Source: Symbiodinium natans
Lineage: Eukaryota > Sar > Dinophyceae > Suessiales > Symbiodiniaceae
NCBI GenBank assembly: GCA_905221605.1
Contig: CAJNDS010002390.1
Span: 841,113-905,112 of the forward strand
Reading direction: 5' to 3'
DNA: 64,000 bases
Part shown: piece after piece, positions 4,385-43,543 of the stretch
Layout: every line of letters begins with the position of its first letter
How positions within the stretch are numbered: the first letter of the stretch is position 1
Translations under genes and position numbers: made by a program
Notes under the pieces: generated by a model
Databases searched by the model: none
The model's input: only the letters and a program-made list of their open reading frames with translations
What the model was told of the DNA's origin: nothing

Positions 4385-7300
4385 ATGCAGCCCTTTGCGG
4401 GGCCCACATCCATGGACAAGCTGGGCCCAACGGCGCCGGTGACGGAGGGCGCGGCCGCGCAGTCAGAAGAGGAGACCATTGCTACAGGGATTGCAGGGCT
4501 TAGGGTTTAGGGTTTAGGGTTCAGGGCTTGGAGTCTAGGGCTTAGGGTTCAGAATCCCTATATGCGTAGAAGCTCCTGTCAAAGATTGGTTTAAGTATTA
4601 AGCGGCGCACAATCGGGGGCTCACTTTCACTTTTGTTGCGTCTTTGCCTGCCACTTTGATTTGTTCAGGCCCGATGCTGCCTGAAGGTGATTTTTGTTTT
4701 TGTTGCGGGGCTCCGTTTTGGGCCTCCTACCACAGCGTCCTACCCTAAGCGCCCCTATAACCCTAAGGGTCCATGTGCCTACACAGCATACACTTGGGCC
4801 TTAACGGTGTTCCCACAGAGTCCCAGGTATATAAGGCACAATTATACATATACATATAGATATATACACATAATCCGAGCATCTGTTTAATTGGGGGGGT
4901 CCCCCCCCCCCCCCCCCCCACCGCAATAAGGAAGGCAGGGTTCCGCAATAATTGGACCATGGCCCTGCATTGATTCTCCATTAAAAAAACAATAGGCTGC
5001 AGATCCCTGAGGTGCTGTAGCTTCGCATCTCCGCAAGCAAAACAAGAAGCCTGCCGACAGATGTTTGAACCCCCCAAAATAATTTCTTTAAATGTGGTGG
5101 GTTTGCCCCATACGAAATCCACCCTAATGGAAGGTAGTCTTCCGGCGGGCTTCCGGCCGAAAAAAATTCTTTAAATATGGGGGTATTAATTAAACAGATG
5201 CTCGGATTATACATATATGATATGGTGACTGGGCTACCAAGATTCCCTGAGCCCCAAACCCGAAAGCCAAAACCCCCAACCCTAAGCCCCATAAACTCCC
5301 TTTTGCCCGTGCGACTACTATTTGCTTAAGAACCCTCCAAAAAACAAAACACATTCTTCCTTATAAGCGTAATATAGGGACTTTTATTTTTGATTCTTTT
5401 GGGGTTCTTAAGCAAATAATAGACGAGGAGCCTCCCGAGAGCGTCATCCAACCGGGCAAGGCTTTGAAACCTGGCAGGAGCCCCAGATCACGGCGTCCAG
5501 GGCTTCCGGTTTATAGAGTCTAGGGCTTGGGGCTCTCACACACACAGATAGATAGGTAGGTAGATAGATAGATATAGATATGGATATAGATATAGATATC
5601 GACATAGACATAGACATAGATATAGATATAGATATAGGTACATATATATACACATGATACTTAGGAGTCTAGGGATTAGGGGGGAAGGCCTCTCGCTTGC
5701 GTCGCTATTTCGACGCACCCACATCCAACTCGGTGTTTGTTCAAGGGCTTCGGGTTTCAGGGCGCCTCCTCCAACTTTCGGCACCCGAAGATGAAGAGTC
5801 AAGTCAAGCAACGACGTTCACACAATTTGCCATTTCACATGCCAGGGGTTCGCCCGAAGAGCCTAATTGAATTCTGCAGAAACTTCCAGAAGACTTTTCA
5901 ACAGGTCCCTAAACCCTAAACCCTAAACCCGAATTAAACCCTAAGCCCTTAACCCCAGAATCCCTGCGGCGAACACCTGCCACCGTTCATGGGGCCTTCG
6001 GCTCCCGAACCCCCCCCCCCCCCCCCCCATGCGGCTCAGATAGCTCAAGTTATATACGCTACGTACTATGGCTTGGTAGCGCAGCGAGGTGCCCTCTTGC
6101 GATTTTTGGGGTTCAAGGCTACCTCCCTCCGATAGTAACCAACCACCCAAGAAAGGTACCCTTGTCCTGGGTAGGATACGGGGGACCCTTAAAAGGGACC
6201 CCTTCTGAACCCTCTTGTGGCTCTCTTAAACAGGGACTTCTTCAGAGGGTCTATGTCCCCAAAAACCCCCCCAAAACCTATCCCCAACCTTGTTATGGGC
6301 TGCCGAGATAGTGTACCTGGAGAAGCCGTGATCCCCTGAAACAAGGGAAAGAGTCCCTTGATTAGTTGTACATCGACCCTTAGGGTTTAGGGCTTAGGGT
6401 TTAGGGTTTAGGGTCTAGGGTTCTTTCTTAGAAGAGAGTACGCACGCAAGATAAGTGTATGTAGACCCCAAAAAAAACCCAAAATCCTTGACTCGGAAGA
6501 GGTGTGCAACCCAAATCCTTACCGATCGGTCCCCCCAAAAAATGGCTTACCAATGTATTTCGGGAGGAACTCATCCTGCGTCCTGCACTTTCCCAGGCTT
6601 GCTTGAAGGTTCGTGGGTAGTTGGAGGCAGGGATATTGGTACACCAGTCACGGTTTTCACCAGTTTCACCCAACCCCTGCGGAAATCTGGCGGTTCATTT
6701 TGGTAGTTCTCGCCTGAGGATCCTTGGACCCAGAGTAGGCCCTTATTCCCTGTTTTTTAAAGGGGGGTTTAGCCTGAGAAGCCCTTGTCCACCAAGCAGG
6801 GTACCCTGCTGTTCTCGGGTTACTCTTGGGTCTAAACCCTAAACCCTAAACCCTAAACCCTAAACCCTAAACTCTTGGGTCTAGGATCTGATGAGCAATC
6901 TCCACCTGGGCTCCTGCCCCCCCTAATTGCTTTGCCTCTCGTTTGGGGGGCATACCCTGCTTGTGGCCGGTTTAGGGTTTAGGGTTTAGGGTTTAGGGTT
7001 TAGGGTTTAGGGTTTAGCGTTTGGGGTTTAGGTTTGATCTACAATAATGAGCCCCTAAGCCCCTAAACGCGAACCCCCTAAACCCCTCAAGCCCTGGTGT
7101 AGTTAGTAGCTGAGACTTGAAAGGTTTCAGAACCCTGAAAAGAAGGTAAGAGACCACATTAAGGGCCCATGAAACTACCCCTAAGCCCTAAGCCCTAAAC
7201 CCTACGACATAAGACTACCCTTAGAGTCACGGAGTATCAGTCTTGGCTTTCGCGGGTGGGCGCGGAGTGAGGTGAGCTGCTGCTGCAGCCGCCACCGGAG

Positions 7301-43543: not shown

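Follow-up and report, generated by a model that had tools for sequence, protein, structure and literature searches.

Outward-facing telomere-type repeat arrays at the splice sites of short exons in a gene region of Symbiodinium natans

The closest described systems are the introners of Amoebophrya and Prorocentrum cordatum. As far as the accessible text of the reports goes, introns of Amoebophrya carry inverted repeats at both ends, with the idea of a hairpin that joins the exon boundaries (PMC7789003), and introns of Prorocentrum cordatum carry simple inverted repeats at both ends (PMC10666404). In the accessible parts of these two reports, three features define introners: inverted repeats (8-20 nt) no more than 30 nt from both intron ends, short direct repeats (3-5 nt) where intron and exon meet, and family copies over many introns. 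A different kind of system is found in human. According to the available sections of the study (PMC2481429), the effects of G-rich and C-rich intronic enhancers add up in an intron with a weak tract, and a stem-loop is not needed. The C-rich motifs are weaker than the G-rich ones, and both lie upstream of the pyrimidine tract.

The DNA studied here shares features with each of these systems. The window, i.e., the whole stretch of 64 kb that was analysed, covers positions 841,113-905,112 of a 1.36-Mb contig in the 759-Mb assembly of Symbiodinium natans and has a GC content of 0.506. Its GC donors, AG|G acceptors, short exons, and TTTAGGG repeats are in keeping with a dinoflagellate of the Symbiodiniaceae type. 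It is thus an internal site with telomere-motif arrays throughout, and these arrays are interstitial telomeric sequences. By analogy with other dinoflagellates, TTTAGGG would be the telomere motif of the present species. In what follows, F denotes a TTTAGGG array and R a CCCTAAA array, both on the coding strand. Exact runs of at least 14 nt number 131 for TTTAGGG and 100 for CCCTAAA, and merging of degenerate arrays gives 156 (85 F and 71 R). Since F and R arrays are nearly balanced in the window (85 vs 71), and the assembly has 853,942 vs 852,709 28-mers, a general strand asymmetry of the motif is ruled out. In 18 sampled stretches, merged arrays make up about 10% of the bases, with N counted among the bases. 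Density differs widely among stretches L009-L033; five N-free stretches are without any array and the richest has 39% of its bases in arrays. An Rfam search of the window returned no match, and pattern scans of viral contigs gave 0 and 0.

Like the introners of Amoebophrya and Prorocentrum cordatum, the introns of the window have complementary ends and non-canonical donors, and they may have short boundary repeats. Unlike those introners, as they appear in the accessible text (PMC7789003, PMC10666404), the repeat here is the telomere motif, the arrays are up to ~266 nt long and common to unrelated introns, both orientations occur deeper in the introns, and there are no intron-long copies in the window. 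GGG-rich and CCC-rich motifs in introns with weak sites recall the G-triplet/C-rich intronic splicing enhancers; unlike the enhancers in the available sections of PMC2481429, most of the introns tested here have the G-rich motif at the 5' end and the C-rich motif at the 3' end, both as telomere-repeat arrays of putative function. The arrays are telomere-type tandem repeats off chromosome ends, as interstitial telomeric sequences are, but they occupy about a tenth of the sampled bases and their orientation is tied to exons. The preliminary description of this DNA knew of no telomere repeat used in this way. The claim may hold for the telomere-motif version: telomere repeats oriented by splice sites were not found in the open-access literature so far as its text was accessible; it does not extend to inverted repeats at dinoflagellate intron ends, which were already published.

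In-frame reading of exons from the preliminary description yields part of a voltage-gated cation channel, from segment S2 to segment S6 (the S labels are our own assignment), in seven exons separated by six introns of 924-2376 nt (Table 1). When the exons are joined, the encoded protein aligns with Pfam Ion_trans over profile positions 34-216 of 241 (E = 4.1e-16, 59.3 bits) and also with calcium and sodium channels of solved structure (best E = 1.1e-9), and therefore the identity of these exons is fixed by homology. Their exact ends were set by in-frame GC and AG sites. Five of the junctions were read in frame by hand, and the first is in phase in the gene-finder output, its unread residues being omitted from the query. 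A gene finder run on array-masked sequence recovers six of the seven exons. Elsewhere in the same genome, a 2079-codon open frame with five Ion_trans matches (G000:C2030:54723-60626) represents an intron-poor multi-domain channel.

Table 1. Exons and flanking repeat arrays (positions in the window)
Feature	Position	Strand	Basis	Flanking arrays and remarks
Exon of preliminary description	13610..13690	+	flank scoring	R 13495-13597, F 13702-13797
Exon of preliminary description	14973..15041	+	flank scoring	R 14884-14960, F 15066-15125
Ion-channel exon (S2-S3 region)	22190..22314	+	Ion_trans alignment	exception: F array upstream 22111-22161; weak F downstream
Ion-channel exon	23270..23431	+	Ion_trans alignment	degenerate CCCTAAA upstream, TTTAGGG array downstream
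TTTAGGG array	23440..23529	+	array list	8 nt past donor 23431
CCCTAAA array	24249..24514	-	array list	18 nt ahead of acceptor 24533
Ion-channel exon (S4)	24533..24578	+	Ion_trans alignment	
TTTAGGG array	24609..24812	+	array list	30 nt past donor 24578
CCCTAAA array	26822..26934	-	array list	20 nt ahead of acceptor 26955
Ion-channel exon (S4-S5)	26955..27001	+	Ion_trans alignment	missed by gene finder
TTTAGGG array	27027..27128	+	array list	25 nt past donor 27001
CCCTAAA array	28384..28571	-	array list	65 nt ahead of acceptor 28637, poly-C between
Ion-channel exon (S5)	28637..28725	+	Ion_trans alignment	
TTTAGGG array	28729..28797	+	array list	3 nt past donor 28725
CCCTAAA array	30808..30908	-	array list	4 nt ahead of acceptor 30913
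Ion-channel exon (pore)	30913..31004	+	Ion_trans alignment	
TTTAGGG array	31021..31085	+	array list	16 nt past donor 31004
Ion-channel exon (S6)	31929..31991	+	Ion_trans alignment	donor end uncertain; R upstream and F downstream both weak
Exon of preliminary description	36834..36868	+	flank scoring	R 36716-36811, F 36917-36950
Exon of preliminary description	37113..37151	+	flank scoring	R 37030-37080, F 37161-37243
Exon of preliminary description	41289..41352	+	flank scoring	R 41207-41278, F 41360-41400
Predicted exon beyond range of preliminary description	47735..47817	+	gene finder	R 47561-47721, F 47826-47888
Predicted exon beyond range of preliminary description	54577..54629	+	gene finder	R 54467-54553, F 54669-54804
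Predicted exon beyond range of preliminary description	59108..59171	+	gene finder	R 58863-59099, F 59195-59313

The outward orientation of the arrays is locked to the splice sites. Each site was scored by comparing F-like with R-like sequence in the 70 nt past the donor or ahead of the acceptor. F exceeds R at all seven donors of the homology exons, and R exceeds F at six of the seven acceptors. Seven gene-finder exons at 44-60 kb show the outward orientation at 7/7 donors and 6/7 acceptors (donor 53964 was used here in place of the gene finder's 53971). Eleven exons based on the list of the preliminary description, which were picked with the arrays in view, agree at 11/11 donors and 9/11 acceptors; acceptors 4415, 10130, 18907, and 34985 were set by us, the list giving only donors there. 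Listed exons with an unreadable frame (e.g., 7309, 8561, 9897, 10676, 12740, 15980, 20669, 33020, and 40024) were left out. Over all 25 exons, donors agree in 25 and acceptors in 21, or 46 of 50 sites. When only strong arrays are counted, F follows 22 of the 25 donors and R none, while R precedes 18 of the 25 acceptors and F one (40 vs 1). Among 3000 pseudo-exons strong arrays occur at 8-12% per class; relative to these, correct-way arrays are enriched about eight-fold. Where present, F begins 3-50 nt past the donor and R ends 4-65 nt ahead of the acceptor. The sites that disagree are all acceptors: an F array lies 28 nt ahead of the homology-supported acceptor 22190, and R is missing at 4415 and 18907 (both set by us) and at 53920.

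A set chosen by rule gives a similar picture. It consists of all plus-strand exons from the array-masked gene finder with a score of at least 2 and full flanks (n = 17), keeps the gene finder's own donor in the 44-60 kb region, and omits the low-complexity prediction 25221 and prediction 63940, which is cut by the window end. Donors agree in 17/17 and acceptors in 13/17 (30/34 in all). Minus-strand predictions show the pattern too (18/20), because an exon between R and F reads identically on both strands.

The 22 donors and 15 acceptors of the preliminary description each bear the repeat ascribed to them when their 60-nt flanks are inspected, although several do so in degenerate form only. Its central claim that repeat orientation is non-random relative to exons is borne out by the homology exons, by the 25 exons together, and by the exon-free test described below. 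The range it gave, 4385..43543, does contain the pattern but is too narrow, for the pattern runs beyond both ends and the bias is genome-wide. As for the exceptions it named, the exons at 2956 and 18656, their coding support is weak.

The orientation can also be examined independently of any exon call. If exons are bracketed by arrays, exon-sized gaps should be common in the order R-to-F and not in the order F-to-R. Gaps of 50-150 nt in the window number 37 R-to-F vs 11 F-to-R, a difference reached by 0 of 20000 label shuffles, and the bias is found in each third of the window (13:4, 14:5, and 10:2). In 24 other stretches of the assembly the counts are 42 vs 14 (0 of 5000 shuffles). Note that these stretches were picked by contig number, five being on the window's contig, one all N, and two partly N, and that a further stretch of 75 nt was left out; L015 was not a blind choice, since it was located where motif matches had been listed (3 versus 0). 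The label shuffles in the window and in the other stretches rule out assembly or simple-repeat noise. In the whole 759-Mb assembly, exact patterns at 75-105 nt occur 63,099 times R-to-F vs 30,350 times F-to-R, with overlapping registers of one array counted more than once. At 300-330 nt the bias is nearly gone (143,516 vs 134,098, ratio 1.07), and at 10-40 nt the R-to-F order has 3,115 occurrences. In the other stretches, R-to-F gaps of 70-150 nt resemble exons, being richer in GC (0.60 vs 0.55-0.56) and having open frames more often (one-sided p = 0.0016 and 0.013); so do those in the window (p = 1.6e-4 and 1.9e-4). A codon-score contrast between R-to-F and other gaps was non-significant (p = 0.08; size-limited p = 0.16).

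The rule has limits in both distance and exon size. In the six homology introns it is obeyed by 9/9 arrays that lie no more than 70 nt from a splice site and by 4/16 deeper arrays. The latter count rules out an intron-wide strand gradient. Flanks of 500 nt around 20 long channel matches elsewhere (366-651 nt, chosen for length from 153), which probably belong to intron-poor genes, have arrays in 3/40 cases, and telomere-capped coding sequence as such is thereby ruled out. Of 20 gene-finder exons shorter than 160 nt in other stretches, five have a strong R array upstream and six a strong F array downstream, with none reversed (11 to 0); weak preferences at this class of exons go both ways (11 to 6 at acceptors, 10 to 6 at donors). 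Eighteen longer gene-finder exons have no strong arrays. Because the longer exons lack strong arrays and long channel matches are mostly array-free, the arrays accompany short exons and not coding sequence per se. An apparently intron-poor gene of another kind is seen at G000:C1992:33993-35855, where chaperonin (TCP1/Cpn60) matches lie in a 682-codon frame; C2062 and C1902 carry short chaperonin matches that could belong to intron-rich copies as exons.

The splice sites themselves are poor. They have the GC, GT, or GA donors and AG|G acceptors of dinoflagellate spliceosomal introns. In the 25 exons, G stands at donor position +1 in 24 and C at +2 in 20 (sites partly chosen by a GC rule), and G follows the acceptor in 21 (sites partly chosen by an AG|G rule). 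For comparison, the accessible part of the published figures for three Symbiodiniaceae gives GC donors at 43.6-58% and AGG acceptors at 96-97%. Donor positions +3 to +6 agree with AAGT at 0 or 1 of the four positions in 23/25 exons, statistics that partly assume GC. The pyrimidine fraction in the 20 nt ahead of acceptors averages 0.53, i.e., there is no pyrimidine tract. Outside masked arrays, GC skew is +0.21 in the 30 nt past donors and -0.13 ahead of acceptors, although weak arrays remain there. The nearest AG upstream of acceptors is at a median of 22 nt, as compared with 8 nt at control AGG sites and 11 nt at controls with no F array close by; AG ahead of acceptors is, however, not below a mononucleotide shuffle (23 vs 24.3 in the last 25 nt, 50 vs 41.1 in 45 nt). 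U1 snRNA genes are present in the genome, with 16 matches of which 11 are above the cut-off. Five U1 snRNA genes of equal score lie on the same strand of one contig (G000:C479:105124-129305).

Since the tested splice sites carry little information, the question arises how the spliceosome picks exons of 50-100 nt among kilobase introns, and something else must mark the exons. The features are best explained as short spliceosomal exons of intron-rich dinoflagellate genes, mostly with an outward repeat within ~70 nt. The poor splice sites, the well-placed arrays, the human enhancer precedent, and the U1 genes together favour a splicing-signal role, and we tentatively prefer, short of calling it probable, the reading that the arrays act as strand-specific splicing signals marking short exons. 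G triplets just inside a donor are a class of intronic enhancer, read in animals by hnRNP H-type proteins and U1 snRNP, and U1 is reported, by the title of one study, to bind a G-rich intronic enhancer. In pre-mRNA a UUUAGGG array places successive G triplets close behind the donor and may be enhancer-like. A CCCUAAA array is a C-triplet tract free of AG at the expected position of the branch point and pyrimidine tract. The arrays could in this manner supply identity to sites that are without it, having mostly GC donors, no U1 consensus past the first two bases, and no pyrimidine tract. We infer that the spliceosome would use the arrays by way of certain proteins and that they would be maintained by selection rather than left by intron birth.

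A broader form of this reading is that the whole genome uses the telomere repeat as a splicing code, in which outward arrays chiefly specify exons via repeat-binding RNPs and the sites have decayed to GC and AG|G; this is possible but doubtful. Nearly all junctions tested in one gene region follow a strict orientation, and a matching bias runs through 759 Mb, which makes the pattern concrete and cheap to test. If the arrays do serve as splicing landmarks, the chromosome-end motif TTTAGGG would have gained a new function at the transcript level. Oriented arrays could also serve as a simple exon finder for genomes in which gene prediction is difficult.

Intron birth would leave the orientation as a birth mark and not a signal. 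The introns could derive from introner-like elements with telomere-repeat terminal inverted repeats, or from broken ends extended by telomerase and rejoined. In the telomerase variant the left piece would gain TTTAGGG, the right piece would read CCCTAAA on the top strand, and the two would then be joined again. Such an origin, the main rival but one we consider unlikely, would place F at the 5' end and R at the 3' end and would concentrate arrays at the intron ends, all of which is observed. Dinoflagellate introns with inverted repeats at both ends have been published as introners (PMC7789003, PMC10666404), and telomerase-made insertions at breaks have been reported in mammals (PMC2246262, PMC8537989), to judge from the accessible text in each case. 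An 8-nt inverted repeat within 30 nt of both ends is found in 4/10 introns (2/6 homology introns), and the longest string shared by the two boundaries reaches at least 3 nt in 9/10 introns, within 12-nt windows and counted without a null. Inverted repeats of that length and distance are, however, found between ends of different introns in 28/90 pairs, so own-end complementarity is not clearly higher, and in 22/497 random pairs. Array-masked self-comparison of the window gives 53 hits, all short repeats, and thus no intron-long family copies within the window. Nested elements imply equal F and R per intron, and none of the six homology introns balances, though weak arrays are missed in the list. 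The strengths of arrays at the two ends of an intron are not significantly correlated (rho 0.39, p = 0.26, n = 10). Finally, the arrays begin 3-50 nt off the exon edge and not at the edge.

The preliminary description had proposed that the two ends of each intron pair in pre-mRNA and draw the splice sites together. The ends could indeed pair: they are complementary over 8-73 nt in 9/10 introns (at least 8 nt within 100 nt), and minimum-energy folds of six longer segments include four in which an intron's two ends are paired with each other (97, 32, 51, and 70 pairs), with across-two-exon pairs in all six. The hairpin proposed to join exon edges in Amoebophrya introners (PMC7789003, accessible text) is a parallel. 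The pairing is not intron-specific, as the 4/10 own against 28/90 foreign ends with at least 8 nt within 30 nt indicate. A nearer complementary array lies across the exon (~90-160 nt) than across the intron (0.7-2 kb between end arrays in four homology introns), and some introns contain, in their interior, arrays of both orientations that compete for pairing. Because complementarity is common to all introns and the nearest partner is across the exon, pairing alone could not pick the correct splice partners, and the proposed model is improbable.

Purifying selection alone would let arrays insert either way and remove those that place AG|G before acceptors or disturb sites. TTTAGGG bears AG|G, the acceptor core, every 7 nt, and strong wrong-way arrays stand at only 1/50 junctions, but loss of wrong-way arrays cannot by itself explain the eight-fold excess of correct-way arrays over pseudo-exons, and this explanation is very unlikely. 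About as unlikely, or slightly more so, is a hairpin in which R and F pair around the exon, leaving it as the loop, for structural exon definition or as a driver of circular RNA: the segment 26880-27090 does fold in this way, into a long hairpin that loops out the exon (-121.1 kcal/mol vs -63.5 for shuffles, z -11.5), pairing in one of the six longer segments is almost confined to pairs across exons, and the strength of the R array ahead of an exon correlates with that of the F array past it (rho 0.46, p = 0.02, n = 25), but within-intron pairs exceed across-exon pairs in four of the six and the gap size may merely equal exon size.

Repeats of other kinds are also present in the window. A poly-G-rich tract of 400 nt lies at 17949-18366 and an AC-rich tract of 1.1 kb at 25233-26313. 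A MITE-like family of ~100 bp has mutual matches on both strands at 2690-2795, 8938-9021, 23654-23751, 50850-50956, and 52727-52798. A second family of short dispersed repeats is found at 13799-13914, 19346-19461, 26456-26569, and 54086-54147, and one of its copies starts directly 3' of a TTTAGGG array.
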